Virus record (IMG/VR): IMGVR_UViG_3300032294_001094
Coordinates: 1-45,611 of that record
Reading direction: 5' to 3' (one strand)
DNA from: a virus
Length of the DNA: 45,611 bases
Shown here: one piece after another, positions 16,640 through 24,824 of the stretch
Numbering within the stretch: position 1 is the stretch's first letter
How the letters are laid out: each line of letters starts with the position of its first letter
Program-made: the position numbers and the translations under genes
The notes under the pieces: model-generated
Database searches by the model: none
Told to the model about the DNA's origin: nothing
The model's input: only the letters and a program-made list of their open reading frames with translations

Positions 16640-17134
16640 ATGGCAAAACAAACCAAATGCAACGTGAGCCTCGAACGAGTAAGGTATTTGTTCTCTTACG
16701 ATCCATTCACTGGTTTGTTAACACGTGCAGTTGATACTTGGCGTGGTAAAAAAGGAACTGTTATCAAAAATACATCTTTGAATATAGATGGTGAGTATCA
16801 TAAAACAACGCGCTGGATATGGTTTCATTATTATGGTGAATGGCCTTCAGATTTAATAGATCATATAAATCGTAATACTGCTGATAACTCCATAGCAAAC
16901 TTACGAATAGTTACTGCAACGCAGAATCAGTATAATAAAGTTCAAGCTAATCCACATGGATACAAAGGCATAACATGGCGAGACAGAAAGAAGAAACCAT
17001 GGATAGCAAAAATAAGAGTTGCTGGAACTAGAATAAATTTAGGTTCTTTTGCAACGAAAGAGCAGGCTGCAAAAGCGTATGAAGAAGCTGCATTAAAATA
17101 TCATGGCGAATATGCACAGTTAGGTGTCCGCTAA
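16640..17134 (+). CDS. HNH homing endonuclease with AP2 domain (second copy type)
   Basis: 164 residues, starting one base after the nuclease stop. The N-terminal segment is typical of HNH_3 enzymes (FSYDPFTGLLTR, then a TRWIWFHYYGEWP region). The catalytic core is LIDHINRNTADNSIANLRIVTATQNQYN (about 72-100, His and Asn present). The AP2 domain is near 105-155 (GYKGITWRDRKKKPWIAKIRVAGTRINLGSF, in parts). It is AT-rich against its neighbours, so a recent arrival. It differs from the endonuclease at 12668 and is not a duplicate. Confidence 0.9.
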   Translation: MAKQTKCNVSLERVRYLFSYDPFTGLLTRAVDTWRGKKGTVIKNTSLNIDGEYHKTTRWIWFHYYGEWPSDLIDHINRNTADNSIANLRIVTATQNQYNKVQANPHGYKGITWRDRKKKPWIAKIRVAGTRINLGSFATKEQAAKAYEEAALKYHGEYAQLGVR

Positions 17135-19014: not shown

Positions 19015-20370
19015 ATGAAAACTGTCCCAATCTCCAGCATAGTTGTGGATCGTCCTAATCGTCAGCGCAAAGAACTGACGAACATCGAGGACCTCGCGGA
19101 GTCCATCCGCCGCCACACCGAGTCTCTTCCAGAAACCGGCGGACTCATCAATCCAATTGTCGTCACCCGCGAACTGATCCTCGTTGCAGGCGAACGTCGC
19201 CTCACCGCAGTTCGTGACGTACTCAAGCGCACAGAAATCGCGGTCACTTTCACCGACGAACTTGAGCCGCCACGGCTCCGCGCAATCGAACTCGAAGAGA
19301 ACATCAAGCGCGAGGAACTTCCGTGGCAGGACTATTGCCTCGCAGTTCTCGAGTTCCATTCACTCAAACGTTCCGACACTCCCGAGTGGTCTCACGAAGA
19401 CACAGCGGATGCTGTCGGCCTATCTCGCCAAGCCGTAACCGAACGCCTCGCTGTAGCCGGGGAACTTGTCTCTGGCACCGCTCGCGTTCTTGAAGCCCCG
19501 AAATACTCAGTCGCCCGCGGTATTGTCCAGCGGAAAACGGAGCGTGAATCAGATGTTGCACTCCAAGAACTCAGAGCAGCAGTGGCAAAACCTGTTGCTC
19601 GAAGCCCACAACGAGAACATGAAACTAGCTCAACTCCAGTACCAGAACAGTTGCCACCTGCACTTCCTCCAGCAGCAATTGTCCAAGGAAGCTTTCTCGA
19701 GTGGGCTCCCGCTTACACCGGGCCACGTTTTAACTTTATCCACTGTGATTTCCCTTATGGAATTGATGCAGACAAATTTAATCAGGGTGGAGCTGCAGCC
19801 CACGGCGGATATACCGACAGCGAAGATTACTATTGGCAACTCCTCCGATGCCTCGCAGACAATCTGGACCGTATCGCTGGACCTAGTTGCCACTTAATGT
19901 TCTGGTACTCAATGAAGTACCACACCGAGACCATCGCCTTTCTTCGCGAGCACACTGACTTCACCATTGATGACTTCCCTCTAGTTTGGAGCAAGAGCGA
20001 CAATGTCGGCATCCTACCTGATCCTTCGCGTGGACCAAGACGAGTGTATGAAACTGCTCTCCTCGGATACCGTGGTGATAGGAAGATTGTTCAAGCTGTG
20101 GCTAACTCGTATTCAAGCCCCAGCGACAGGTCGATTCATATGTCAGTTAAACCTGTCCCCATGCTTCGACACTTCTTCCGAATGTTCGTCGATTCAAACT
20201 CCATTGTCCTCGACCCAACTTGCGGCTCTGGATCGGCTATTCGAGCGGCTGATGCTGCTGGCGCAGCAAGAGTCCTTGGACTTGAACTCAACTCCGAGTT
20301 CGCCGAACGAGCCCAACTCGAGTTCGAGCGAGACCGGAAACTGAGAAAGGCTGCGGAGGCAACGAAATGA
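19015..20370 (+). CDS. ParB-like domain fused to a DNA methyltransferase
   Basis: 451 residues. Residues 1-70 are a ParB/Spo0J N-terminal fold with the nucleotide-binding box AGERRLTA (58-65). Residues 100-150 carry a helix-turn-helix (DTADAVGLSRQAVTERLAV). After a Pro-rich linker, 240-450 form an adenine/cytosine-N methyltransferase: catalytic motif IV DFPYG (245-249, variant of DPPY) precedes SAM motif I LDPTCGSGSA (399-408), the order of the beta class. It may modify phage DNA against restriction. Such ParB-methylase fusions are known in phages and mobile elements. The target sequence cannot be read. Confidence 0.9.
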   Translation: MKTVPISSIVVDRPNRQRKELTNIEDLAESIRRHTESLPETGGLINPIVVTRELILVAGERRLTAVRDVLKRTEIAVTFTDELEPPRLRAIELEENIKREELPWQDYCLAVLEFHSLKRSDTPEWSHEDTADAVGLSRQAVTERLAVAGELVSGTARVLEAPKYSVARGIVQRKTERESDVALQELRAAVAKPVARSPQREHETSSTPVPEQLPPALPPAAIVQGSFLEWAPAYTGPRFNFIHCDFPYGIDADKFNQGGAAAHGGYTDSEDYYWQLLRCLADNLDRIAGPSCHLMFWYSMKYHTETIAFLREHTDFTIDDFPLVWSKSDNVGILPDPSRGPRRVYETALLGYRGDRKIVQAVANSYSSPSDRSIHMSVKPVPMLRHFFRMFVDSNSIVLDPTCGSGSAIRAADAAGAARVLGLELNSEFAERAQLEFERDRKLRKAAEATK

Positions 20371-20633
20371 AAGTTCTTTTGATCTGGCAACAAATCCCGG
20401 AAGAAACTACCGGGTATATTCTTGATGGGTATCTGGCTGAACTTGCAATTCAGTCGGCCGGAAAATACATCAATTTAGATGATCTAGCTGAAGATCATCC
20501 GATCATGAAACTCAACAATGAGTTAGTTGCTGACTACAACGGTGATCGAGAATCTTTAACTAAAATTGATCTCGACATTCCAATCAGCGCTGGTATGTTT
20601 GAAGTTATTGTTGTCTGCGGTTTTATACTGTGA
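20367..20633 (+). CDS. Small acidic protein, unknown function
   Basis: 88 residues, coupled by ATGA to the methyltransferase gene. It begins MKVLLIWQQIPEETTGYIL, has acidic helices (NLDDLAEDHPIMKLNNELV), and ends with a hydrophobic strand (FEVIVVCGFIL). It looks like a compact alpha/beta protein, perhaps an inhibitor or adaptor. No family recognised. Confidence 0.6.
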   Translation: MKVLLIWQQIPEETTGYILDGYLAELAIQSAGKYINLDDLAEDHPIMKLNNELVADYNGDRESLTKIDLDIPISAGMFEVIVVCGFIL

Positions 20634-20640
20634 GGGCGAA

Positions 20641-20844
20641 ATGATTGACGTTTCAAAACTAATCCAGGGCGACCGCATCCTCGTCCCCAGCAATGTCGGT
20701 TACGATCAAACCGTAACTGTCCACCACATCTTCGAGAACGAGTCCGTCTACTACGTCGTCGCAAGCTGGCGCAATCACTTTGGCCAGATCTTCTTCGGCA
20801 TATGGGACGGTCTGCAAGTCCGAGGCATAGTCGATGCAAAGTAA
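20641..20844 (+). CDS. Small beta-rich protein, unknown function
   Basis: 67 residues from the ATG at 20641, behind TGAGGGCGAA. Successive short strands (DRILVPSN, TVTVHHIFENESVYYVVASW, IFFGIWDGLQVRGI) suggest a small barrel, SH3-like in style. Its last 11 bases overlap the glycosylase-exonuclease gene. Function not recognised. Confidence 0.6.
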   Translation: MIDVSKLIQGDRILVPSNVGYDQTVTVHHIFENESVYYVVASWRNHFGQIFFGIWDGLQVRGIVDAK

Positions 20845-21841
20845 AATCGCCATAGTCGGTGACTGCTGGGGCGATGAAGAGCAACGTCAGCTTGTCCCGT
20901 TCGTCGGGACGGCTGGCTACACCCTGACCCGAATCCTTGAGGACGCTGACATTCGGCGGGCCGACTGCTTCCTCACCAACGTATTCAACCTAAAGCCTCC
21001 GGGAGGTAACGATGTTGAGTATCTCTGTGGACCTAAAACTTCAGCTATCCCTATCCGTCCCCCTCTCAAGCCCGGAAAATATATCCGCGCTGAGTACGCT
21101 TCTGAACTTGTCCGCCTCGAAAACGAACTTCGAGAACTTAAGCCAAATCTTATCGTCGCTCTCGGCAATGCAGCAAGCTGGGCCTTGCTTGGTGACGGTC
21201 GAGTCTCTCGAATCCGAGGCACCATTAACTCCAGCCCATTCGGAAAAGTACTCCCCACCTACCACCCCAGCGCCGTACTCCGTGAGTGGTCCCTTCGGCC
21301 AACTGTCGTCCTCGACTTCGCCAAAGCCAAGCGACAGTCCGAGTTCCCCGAAGTACGCCGACCCCAGAGATTTGTTCACATTTATCCGACCCTAGCTGAT
21401 CTGGAGAATTGGCATGAGCAGCTTAATCATTCCACGATTATCAGCTTTGACATTGAAACAGCGGGCGACCAGATCACTTGCATCGGTTTCTCACCGGACA
21501 CTCGCACTTCATACGTCATTCCCTTTGTGGACCCTCGTAAACCAGGAGCTTCTTATTGGGCTTCAGCAAGCGAGGAACGCCAGGCATGGAATATCGTTGC
21601 TAAGATTCTCGCAACTCCTGCACGAAAGGTCACGCAGAACGGGCTCTATGACGTTCACTTCCTCTACCGCAGGTACGGTATGACAGTGAACAACTGGTCC
21701 GAGGATACGATGCTTCTACACCACGCGCTTTACATCGAGTCCCAAAAAGGTCTTGACTTCCTCGGAAGTATCTACACCGATGAAGCCAGTTGGAAGCTTA
21801 TGCGTAGCAAGGGTAAAACCACTATCAAGAAGGATGAGTGA
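20834..21841 (+). CDS. Uracil-DNA glycosylase fused to N-terminal part of a 3'-5' exonuclease
   Basis: 335 residues. Residues 1-165 resemble family 4-type uracil-DNA glycosylase: GDCWGDEEQRQLVPFVGTAG (9-28), FLTNVFNLKPP, and the HPS loop (LPTYHPSAVL near 140-149). Residues 195-325 are DnaQ-like: exo I FDIETAG with D206 and E208, exo II NGLYDVHFL with D273, then EDTMLLHHAL. The exo III Tyr/Asp motif is absent here and lies in the polymerase gene at 22160. Glycosylase-exonuclease-polymerase fusions exist in other phages; here the chain is cut between exo II and exo III. The two parts probably assemble. Confidence 0.85.
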   Translation: MQSKIAIVGDCWGDEEQRQLVPFVGTAGYTLTRILEDADIRRADCFLTNVFNLKPPGGNDVEYLCGPKTSAIPIRPPLKPGKYIRAEYASELVRLENELRELKPNLIVALGNAASWALLGDGRVSRIRGTINSSPFGKVLPTYHPSAVLREWSLRPTVVLDFAKAKRQSEFPEVRRPQRFVHIYPTLADLENWHEQLNHSTIISFDIETAGDQITCIGFSPDTRTSYVIPFVDPRKPGASYWASASEERQAWNIVAKILATPARKVTQNGLYDVHFLYRRYGMTVNNWSEDTMLLHHALYIESQKGLDFLGSIYTDEASWKLMRSKGKTTIKKDE

Positions 21842-21842
21842 A

Positions 21843-22163
21843 ATGAAACTTGTTTCAATTGAATCTCCCTACGCCGGTGACACCGAGCGAAACATCACCT
21901 ACGCCAAGCGAGCCATGCTCGACTCCATTGAGCGCGACGAAGCCCCATTCGCTTCCCATCTTCTCTACCCGCAAGTCCTCGACGACAACGATATGTTCCA
22001 GCGGGAAACCGGCTTCGCTTGTTCGTTTGCCTGGATTCAGTGGGCCGATTACCTTGCAGTCTACACCGATTACGGCATCAGTCCCGGTATGCAGCGTGCG
22101 ATAGACTACGCCTATGAAATCGAAGTTGCTGTATTCTACCGCACCATCGGACCCAATCCGTGA
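21843..22163 (+). CDS. DUF7768-type protein inserted between the halves of the polymerase
   Basis: 106 residues from the ATG at 21843, behind AAGGATGAG. SIESPYAGD (5-13) and FASHLLYPQVLDD, then WADYLAVYTDYGISPGM, follow the pattern of DUF7768, a small Rossmann-like family related to nucleoside deoxyribosyltransferases and common in phages. The glycosidase-type activity is unproven for the family. It separates the exonuclease and polymerase genes, starting one base after the first stop and ending with a GTGA overlap. It is not a homing enzyme, so the split is not explained by an intron. Confidence 0.75.
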   Translation: MKLVSIESPYAGDTERNITYAKRAMLDSIERDEAPFASHLLYPQVLDDNDMFQRETGFACSFAWIQWADYLAVYTDYGISPGMQRAIDYAYEIEVAVFYRTIGPNP

Positions 22164-23671
22164 AGATCATCGACACCTCCCTCCTCACCCCCACTTCGCT
22201 TTCAGGCGAAACAGAATCGCTTTGGGTCTACAACGGCCTTGACACCGCAGTTACCCTCGAAGTCTTCAACGCCATCGAGGCCGAACTTGACGAGCAAACC
22301 CGCGCAACCTATTCATTCTCAAAGTCGCTTCAAGCCCCGATCCTCGAAATGAATATGCGGGGAATCCTAGTTGATCAATCGCGGAAGAACGAAGTCCTTT
22401 CCCTCTATCGCCGCGACATTGCTCAACTCGAGTCCCAGTTCAACCGGCTTGTCCTCGAAGTTTTCGACCGCCACATTAACTGGCGGTCGAACAAAGACTT
22501 GATCGAGCTTCTGTACGGAACGATGCAGATTCCAGCGATCAAGAAACGAAACCCGAAAGGCCAGTACCTCCCCACCGTTAACCGCGAAGCCCTGGAGAAA
22601 CTCGATGCTTACTTCTATGCTCGACCAATCCTTTCCCATCTCCTCGCAATGCGGGACATTGGAAAGAAAATCGGTGTACTCGAAACAGACATTGACTCTG
22701 ACGGTCGAATGCGTACCAGTTACAATATCGGTGGAACAACTACCGGACGACTCAGTTCGTCTCTCGGTGACTTCGGGCACGGGACGAATCTCCAGAACAT
22801 CGAACAGCGTCTTCGATCTGTTTTCATCGCTGACCCTGGACATAAGCTCGCTTATATCGACGGAGAGCAAGCCGAGTCTCGTCTCGTAGGCGCACTGTGC
22901 TGGAACCTATTCGATGATGGGAGATACCTCGATGCGTGTGAATCCGGTGACCTACATACCACTGTCACTAAGCTTGCTTGGAGCGATTTGCCTTGGGTGG
23001 ACGATCTCAAGGCTTGCAAAGCCATCGCCGAGCAACCAGCTTACCGGCAGTTGTCTTACCGCGATCTCGCAAAACGTCTCGGCCATGGAACTAACTACAA
23101 CGGCAAGCCACCTACTATGGCCAAACATACAAAACTTGAAGTCGGGATCGTCCGCGATTTTCAGTACAAATATTTCACCGCTTTTCCTGCAATACGACAG
23201 TGGCACGAATGGACCGCGGAAACTCTTGCTCGAACCGGACATCTTACATCACTGATGGGCCGCCGGAGGATTTTCTTCGGTCGCCTACAGGACGACGCAA
23301 CCTTACGTGAAGCCATCGCGTACAATCCCCAGTCCTCTCTTTCCGACATTATCAACCTCGGTCTCCTCAATGTTTGGCGCGCAAACTTCTGTCAAGTCCT
23401 TCTCCAAATCCACGATGCTATCGTTGTGCAGTACCCGGAAGATCAAGAAGAAAAAATCATCCCACAGTTGATCGACCACTTCTTAGTTCCCCAGGAACTT
23501 AAGCACGGTCGTATGCTGCGTATTCCATCTGAGGTTAAAGTCGGTTGGAATTGGGCTAACCAAGAAGATGGAAACCCTGACGGGCTGGTGAAATATGACA
23601 GAGTTAAAGGCGACCCCAGGAAACGGTCAAGGGCTGCGGAGACTTCCATGTTGGATCGAAGGCTTTTTTAA
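22160..23671 (+). CDS. polA: Family A DNA polymerase (carries exo III motif at its N-terminus)
   Basis: 503 residues from GTG at 22160. Residues 24-28 (YNGLD) supply the exo III Tyr/Asp missing from the upstream gene. Polymerase motif A is DGEQAESR (D234, E239, R241). Motif B is RDLAKRLGHGTNY, with R301, K305 and Y313 in place and His309 where E. coli Pol I has Phe762. Motif C is HDAIVVQ (H418, D419), with Ala where Pol I has Glu. All three catalytic carboxylates expected for metal binding can be placed. It is the replicative polymerase of this phage. The 3' end overlaps the next gene by 77 bases. Confidence 0.92.
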   Translation: MKIIDTSLLTPTSLSGETESLWVYNGLDTAVTLEVFNAIEAELDEQTRATYSFSKSLQAPILEMNMRGILVDQSRKNEVLSLYRRDIAQLESQFNRLVLEVFDRHINWRSNKDLIELLYGTMQIPAIKKRNPKGQYLPTVNREALEKLDAYFYARPILSHLLAMRDIGKKIGVLETDIDSDGRMRTSYNIGGTTTGRLSSSLGDFGHGTNLQNIEQRLRSVFIADPGHKLAYIDGEQAESRLVGALCWNLFDDGRYLDACESGDLHTTVTKLAWSDLPWVDDLKACKAIAEQPAYRQLSYRDLAKRLGHGTNYNGKPPTMAKHTKLEVGIVRDFQYKYFTAFPAIRQWHEWTAETLARTGHLTSLMGRRRIFFGRLQDDATLREAIAYNPQSSLSDIINLGLLNVWRANFCQVLLQIHDAIVVQYPEDQEEKIIPQLIDHFLVPQELKHGRMLRIPSEVKVGWNWANQEDGNPDGLVKYDRVKGDPRKRSRAAETSMLDRRLF

Positions 23672-24824
23672 CTACACCGAAGGCCACGCCTCCCCGGATA
23701 TTTTCCGGCGGTGGGTAGGGATTGCAGCACTGGCGGGCGCACTCGAGCGAAAAGTTTGGGTGCGCACGCTTGGCTCTAACCTTTACCCGAATCTTTACAC
23801 TGTTCTTGTCGGCCCGCCAGGCGTCGGTAAAACCACCGTGCTTACTGAGGCTGCCCGGCTTTGGCGCGAACTTACTTCTCACCACGTTGCACCTTCCAGC
23901 GTAACCAAAGCTTCCCTTATCGACTGCCTCGAAGATGCGAAGCGCCGCATTCTCCGTCCCGGTCTCGTTCCGCCGTTCGTGGAGTTTAACTCCCTTCTCG
24001 TCGCGTCAGGTGAACTTGGCGTTCTCATTCCGATGTACGAGAATGATTTTATGAACGTCCTCACTGACATATATGACGGCCACCCTTACGCTGAGCGCCG
24101 CCGCACGAAAGATCTCAAAGTCAAGATCGACCAACCTCAGATCAATCTTCTTGGAGCCACAACTCCATCTTACCTTAACGCATTTATGCCTGAGGGTGCA
24201 TGGGATCAGGGCTTCATTTCCCGAACACTTCTAATCTATTCAGGCGAGCGCGTTATCCGCCCGCTCTTCTCCGACATTCTCCGGGACGAGTCGATCTTCA
24301 AGAACTTAATCGCTGACCTCAAACACATAGGAAACATCTATGGCGAGATTAAATTTTCCGAAGATGCAGCACATGCAATTAGTGCTTGGCATATGGCTGG
24401 AGGTCCGCCTGCTCCCGAGCATCCTAAACTTACTCACTACCTTACGCGACGGACTGCTCATCTTCTTAAGCTGTGCATGGTTGCCACTATTAGCCGGGGC
24501 GATAGCATGGTTATATCACTTAGCGATTACCAACTAGCAATGGATTGGTTGAGCGAGGCTGAATCCGCTATGCCGGACATTTTCCGGTCAATGACAACTG
24601 GCGGTGATTCACGTGCGATTGAGGAAGCTTGGTACTTCCTTTTCCAAATCTACATGAAAGAGAAAAAGCCGGTGCTCGAAACCCGGCTGGTATTCTTTCT
24701 CAAGGAAAAGATTCCGTCCCATCAAATTAAAACTATAATTGAAACGATGGTCCGAGCCGGAATGATTAAACAAGAAGTTGTCTCAGGCCTTTCGGCTTTT
24801 GTGCCGCAGAAGAAATCAGGTTAA
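23595..24824 (+). CDS. DUF3987-type AAA helicase/primase-associated ATPase
   Basis: 409 residues. CWIEGFFNYTEG...SPDIFRRWVGIAALAGALERKVWV (about 19-55) precedes Walker A GPPGVGKTT (73-81). A later stretch (LLGATTPSYLNAFMP, then FISRTLLIY) is like the sensor and arginine-finger region of DUF3987/YfjI proteins, which act as replicative helicases or primase partners. The ATG at 23595 lies well inside the polymerase gene; the conserved WIEGF segment at residue 20 supports it. It ends tail-to-tail with the leftward lysis operon, sharing TTAA. Confidence 0.8.
   Translation: MTELKATPGNGQGLRRLPCWIEGFFNYTEGHASPDIFRRWVGIAALAGALERKVWVRTLGSNLYPNLYTVLVGPPGVGKTTVLTEAARLWRELTSHHVAPSSVTKASLIDCLEDAKRRILRPGLVPPFVEFNSLLVASGELGVLIPMYENDFMNVLTDIYDGHPYAERRRTKDLKVKIDQPQINLLGATTPSYLNAFMPEGAWDQGFISRTLLIYSGERVIRPLFSDILRDESIFKNLIADLKHIGNIYGEIKFSEDAAHAISAWHMAGGPPAPEHPKLTHYLTRRTAHLLKLCMVATISRGDSMVISLSDYQLAMDWLSEAESAMPDIFRSMTTGGDSRAIEEAWYFLFQIYMKEKKPVLETRLVFFLKEKIPSHQIKTIIETMVRAGMIKQEVVSGLSAFVPQKKSG

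Follow-up and report, generated by a model that had tools for sequence, protein, structure and literature searches.

How did the proofreading exonuclease of a phage DNA polymerase come to be divided between two genes with a small, unrelated gene between them, and did that middle gene make the division? The locus that raises this question lies in the window, which is the whole stretch of DNA analysed here: a 45.6 kb IMG/VR virus record that also encodes a head–tail connector and a GP7-type capsid protein. Three co-directional genes occupy positions 20834–23671 of its + strand (Table 1), coding for a uracil-DNA glycosylase–exonuclease protein (UDG-exo), a DUF7768 protein and a family A polymerase protein (PolA); the open reading frames and their coordinates agree with those given in an earlier note on this DNA. 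The N-terminal domain of UDG-exo is predicted to belong to the uracil-DNA glycosylase superfamily from its profile match (68.2 bits to Pfam UDG against a cut-off of 24.3), and a profile search of the PDB found the UDG TM0511.

Table 1. Features of the divided polymerase locus, in window coordinates.
Feature	Position	Strand	Evidence
UDG-exo subunit, 335 aa	20834..21841	+	Pfam UDG 9.9e-19, DNA_pol_A_exo1 1.3e-7
UDG-exo domains: predicted uracil-DNA-glycosylase superfamily, residues 2-154 (N-terminal); 3'-5' exonuclease core, residues ~180-325, with exo I and exo II			
Exo I codons D206, E208	21449..21457	+	Invariant in 99/99 clusters; aligned with Klenow exo I DxE
Exo II codons N269 to D273	21638..21652	+	N269 and D273 invariant in 99/99 clusters; aligned with Klenow exo II NxxxD
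UDG-exo C-terminal tail TIKKDE-stop, clade-conserved	21818..21841	+	Codons hold the Shine–Dalgarno-like AAGGAT (21830-21835) for the next gene
DUF7768 protein, 106 aa, NDT/DNPH1-like predicted fold	21843..22163	+	Pfam DUF7768 3.5e-29; AlphaFold2 pLDDT 95.6; Foldseek NDT, DNPH1
PolA subunit, 503 aa, exo III and polymerase motifs A, B, C	22160..23671	+	Pfam DNA_pol_A 1.3e-35
Exo III codons Y24 to D28 (YNGLD)	22229..22243	+	Y and D invariant in 97/97 clusters with the polymerase present; aligned to Klenow YAAED
Polymerase motifs A (D234), B (R301/K305/Y313), C (H418/D419)	22859..23416	+	Cluster conservation; Klenow alignment

Distribution of the split

Relatives were collected by scans of IMG/VR and clustered at 90% identity of UDG-exo. 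All 152 loci of the window's clade in which both parts were visible are split at the same point; they form 99 clusters, and the usual arrangement of exonuclease and polymerase on one polypeptide is absent, the window and 99/99 clusters alike having two open reading frames. It had been claimed that other phages carry glycosylase, exonuclease and polymerase as one chain, and 24 sister loci do so, including those of Microcystis phage Mel-JY34 and MW202489. On the tree of both parts, which is unrooted, there is a single change between the split and fused states, and the two groups are parted by the longest internal branch. A sequencing error at the stop codon at 21839 is excluded, because the same split is found in 99 clusters with one state change on the tree. 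The split has also been stable, as the earlier note proposed, being kept throughout this large clade. Annotation pipelines label the two halves as a hypothetical protein and a DNA polymerase, as in Caulobacter phage Kuura, and so hide the exonuclease.

A second split site was seen in two other loci (L004 5662-6216 and L113 5729-6572), in which a fused UDG-exo-thumb chain is followed by one or more small genes and then by a palm/fingers chain. Both lie within the fused group on the tree, with the cut in the polymerase domain instead; as they fall among fused sisters, their split is an independent event.

The divided proofreading site

Exo I (DxE), exo II (NxxxD) and exo III (YxxxD) are all present in the enzyme of the window, spread across two chains. 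Exo I and exo II had been assigned to UDG-exo and exo III to the very start of PolA, and alignment with Klenow agrees: Tyr24 and Asp28 fall on the classical exo III residues, so exo III truly lies on the polymerase chain and not elsewhere in the first protein. Residue placement in this alignment and conservation among the clusters (Table 1) both support the proposal that a complete exonuclease site takes both chains. The polymerase motifs A, B and C (D, R/K/Y and HD, respectively) are present, and their scored residues are almost invariant among the clusters.

Alignment to the unsplit homologues, in which the split loci were entered as read-through rows, indicates that the halves join without missing residues. 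On PHROG 17, the profile of the fused phage polymerase, UDG-exo covers positions 480–796 and PolA positions 806–1244, with nine profile positions between them. The spacing from exo II to exo III, with both tails summed, is 84–96 residues in split enzymes versus 69–77 in fused chains; as the split spacing exceeds the fused spacing, residues have been added to the new ends, not lost from them, and no segment is missing.

UDG-exo and PolA were modelled with AlphaFold2 as one tethered chain, the linker being the gap read through in frame 0. The model has a pTM of 0.81 and is confident in all parts but the linker (326–440), which is disordered; using Foldseek, it aligns over most of Klenow (TM 0.79 to 1kln and 0.75 to 8oo6). 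With a tether between the chains and fused homologues in the AlphaFold2 alignment, the model shows compatibility and not association. We infer that UDG-exo and PolA would assemble in trans as a two-subunit polymerase, and a proofreading activity from the shared site of the two chains is likewise predicted. A proofreading site on two polypeptides in about 100 distinct phage lineages would offer a natural system in which to part proofreading from synthesis, and proofreading could also be regulated via association of the subunits.

As a separate observation, His309 of PolA (window 23084-23086) aligns with Phe762 of Escherichia coli Pol I, and this position is His in all 91 clusters that reach it; Phe, Tyr or Leu are the residues usually discussed at the Phe762 position in phage surveys.

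Expression of the genes

The C-terminal tail of UDG-exo is conserved as TIK[KR][DE][DE], and its codons often hold a Shine–Dalgarno-like stretch: a match of at least 5 is found in 49% of UDG-exo tails versus 8% of polymerase tails and 9% of internal 24-mers, which served as controls. In the window the AAGGAT in this tail lies upstream of the DUF7768 start codon (ATG at 21843). UDG-exo ends with TGA at 21839–21841 and DUF7768 at 22161–22163, where the stop codon is overlapped by the GTG start codon of PolA at 22160 (GTGA). Each following gene is probably translationally coupled, through the Shine–Dalgarno stretch in the UDG-exo tail and the overlaps of stop and start codons.

The slot between the halves

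Over the 99 clusters the gap between the halves ranges from −4 (a four-base overlap) to 1354 nt. Counted by cluster, DUF7768 is found in this slot in 19, another gene with the nucleoside deoxyribosyltransferase (NDT) fold in 11 and an HNH gene in 13, while 14 clusters have at least one gene-free member; the slots of other clusters hold MazG-like, KTSC or unknown genes, and DUF1937 also occurs. Pfam and PHROG scans of the 133 slot open reading frames gave DUF7768 (18), HNH_3 (13), DUF1937 (nine), KTSC (seven), pyrophosphatases (five) and others. The slot of the window contains DUF7768 alone, with no HNH gene according to Pfam.

Slot content differs between phages with 97–98% identical UDG-exo: an HNH gene of ∼170 aa is present in L147 and L118 and absent from their respective counterparts L146 and L119, and a small slot gene is present in L170 and absent from L155. 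HNH genes are ∼15-fold enriched per base (11 in 48.5 kb of slots versus 11 in ∼746 kb elsewhere), and those in slots often directly abut the UDG-exo stop or the polymerase start. On the tree, the presence of DUF7768 changes at least 11 times and that of HNH, which is scattered, ten times. The gap upstream of UDG-exo is equally variable and the polymerase–primase junction is tight; the slot thus behaves as an ordinary variable intergenic position of the operon, albeit one within a single enzyme. The observation that the two halves share a reading frame, with start codons 1,326 bases apart, is true of the window but fails as an insertion scar: the same holds in 33/99 clusters, which is the one third expected by chance, and so the shared frame carries no information.

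Some individual slot genes resemble nucleotide enzymes: those at L005 3351-3731, L169 5274-5705 and L172 1907-2338 match MazG-like pyrophosphatases by PHROG, with the loci assigned by eye, and that at L007 7296-7601 appears deaminase-like by eye only, with no Pfam match.

The DUF7768 protein

The best Foldseek matches to the model of the DUF7768 protein are nucleoside deoxyribosyltransferases and DNPH1, with a TM of about 0.7, and its sequence matches PHROG 355 (1.4e-21). Unlike this fold search, a sequence search of the PDB with the DUF7768 profile gave no match, and we found no literature on DUF7768 in open-licence full texts. DUF7768 and the nucleoside 2'-deoxyribosyltransferase/DNPH1 proteins (PF05014 and PF09152, DUF1937) have in common the fold and the SPY and SxGM-type conserved positions. 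They differ at the catalytic glutamate, which is the invariant E96 in the DUF1937/NDT proteins of the slot and is replaced by Ala, Gly, Ser or Asn in 19 DUF7768 proteins, in a profile alignment that is weak (61% probability). As the family glutamate has no conserved counterpart in the aligned DUF7768 sequences, the usual NDT-family chemistry cannot be assumed for DUF7768.

The NDT-fold proteins of the slot (DUF7768, DUF1937 and NDT; 30/99 clusters) might cooperate with the proofreading subunit that contains UDG; they could, for instance, clear unwanted deoxynucleotides or bind where the two subunits meet, and the slot would then not be neutral. We regard this as a long shot; were it true, proofreading, uracil removal and pool cleaning would be one module, and the cut would have made an accessory position.

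Origin of the split

The explanation that we prefer, at a probability of about 0.8, is a single old fission in the exonuclease fold, after which the enzyme persisted as an obligate two-subunit polymerase and the slot cargo turned over. An ancestral single chain comprising UDG, 3'–5' exonuclease and polymerase would have been cut once, between exo II and exo III, and its two products retained as UDG-exo and exoIII-polymerase subunits. Their association would be required for a complete proofreading site, with exo I and exo II supplied by one chain and the exo III Tyr/Asp helix by the other, and the product of the locus would be a two-subunit family A replicative polymerase. The cut point would have become an intercistronic slot, which today is either empty or occupied by between one and four small genes with fast turnover; among these are NDT-fold genes (DUF7768, for example), HNH endonucleases and MazG-like genes. 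We infer that the direction was fission rather than fusion, because exonuclease and polymerase are continuous in PolA generally and the cut lies inside a domain. A fission inside an essential domain could thus be fixed and then host small genes, HNH endonucleases among them.

The earlier note held that insertion of DUF7768 made the split. On this account DUF7768, or a mobile unit carrying it, entered a one-chain gene and was later lost elsewhere, which we consider unlikely. DUF7768 does occur in slots on both sides of the deep branches of the split clade, within ±5 kb of the polymerase it is found in split phages in the slot only, and its distances correlate with those of UDG-exo (Mantel r of 0.52 overall), a partly congruent tree that is compatible with an ancestral slot DUF7768 and so with its having been the first insert. 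However, there is little congruence among distant pairs (r of 0.17), the gene is found in only 19/99 clusters with its many changes on the tree, 14/99 clusters have gene-free slots, and the fused locus L093 carries DUF7768 (1435-1881) ∼2 kb upstream of its one-chain polymerase; we know of no mobility function for DUF7768. Since near-identical phages differ in slot content, DUF7768 presence changes so often and distant congruence is weak, the middle gene is best seen as an interchangeable passenger and not as the cause of the cut. Another possibility, which we entertain only tentatively, is that an HNH homing endonuclease made the original split and that most lineages have since lost or replaced it. 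The slot enrichment of HNH genes (13/99 clusters), their flush positions and their presence or absence between near-identical phages speak for it, as do the precedents of nrdA, gene 60 and the seg-associated gene 43 (PMC2988022); against it, their scattered distribution looks recent, the slot of the window has no HNH gene, and an HNH gene may invade a pre-existing gap, a course of events that has been suggested for gene 43 of Aeromonas phages, itself a split gene (PMC2988022). As this account concerns the origin only, it is compatible with the fission that we prefer.

Two further alternatives concern the products of the locus. The exonuclease could be dead or single-chain, with UDG-exo no longer proofreading or working without exo III; this is very improbable, as the six scored exo positions are invariant over 97–99 diverged clusters on both chains, which is unexpected in a decaying site. 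Splicing of an intron, or recoding, that would restore a single protein from the two parts is scarcely credible, even though introns with HNH genes are frequent in essential phage genes and ICP1, which splices its tape-measure and terminase transcripts (PMC10448857), provides a precedent. A search of positions 20500–24000 gave no Rfam match even at E ≤ 1, and hence no group I or group II intron structure; an intact gene fills the gap in the window, some members in 14 clusters leave no room for an intron, each half has its own stop and start codon, and there are additional residues at both new ends.

Comparison with known systems

The one-chain UDG-exo-PolA enzymes (PHROG 17; for example Mel-JY34 XAI96477 and the MW202489 DNA polymerase) have the same domains in the same order as the split enzymes, and exo I–III and the polymerase motifs align with no segment missing. 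They differ in being a single polypeptide without the extra ends of the split clade, namely the TIKRDE-type tail and the MKIIDTS-type N-terminus. In MEP401-type OM43 phages the family A polymerase lies in two open reading frames, cut in the polymerase domain (PMC10580990). These phages, Vibrio phage VS-ABTNL-3 (L004) and L113 resemble the window in having two open reading frames with one or more small unrelated genes between them, but their cut lies inside the polymerase domain (at about residue 215 of the window PolA), unlike the exonuclease-site cut of the window.

T4-type genes in pieces include nrdA/mobE of Aeh1, gene 60/mobA of T4 and gene 43A/43B of Aeromonas phages 25 and 44RR, and in divided replication genes of this type the endonuclease may have entered an already existing gap (PMC2988022). 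They share with the window an essential replication gene in two chains that need reassembly, as is predicted here, and an insert that can, but need not, be a homing endonuclease. The window differs in that its enzyme belongs to family A and is cut in the proofreading site, and in that the split is clade-wide with a variable slot, which in the window contains no HNH gene. Among open-licence full texts, none that we found describes an exonuclease site split throughout a clade, and nothing useful turned up on UDG-exo-pol fusions; the clade-wide cut inside the exonuclease site appears to be new, whereas phage genes in pieces are already known.

Other observations

Three loci (L007 7603-10305, L008 3354-6056 and L052 6351-8789) have polymerase open reading frames of 812–900 aa with an insert inside the polymerase domain; in L007 and L008 it is ∼260 aa long and lies near motif B, and none of the three inserts has an intein match in Pfam. 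Elsewhere in the replication region of the window, an HNH_3 + AP2 endonuclease is encoded at 16640-17134. Upstream of UDG-exo, at 19015-20370, a ParB_N-like domain is fused to an N6/N4 DNA methylase, and relatives of this gene lie upstream in many of the split loci.
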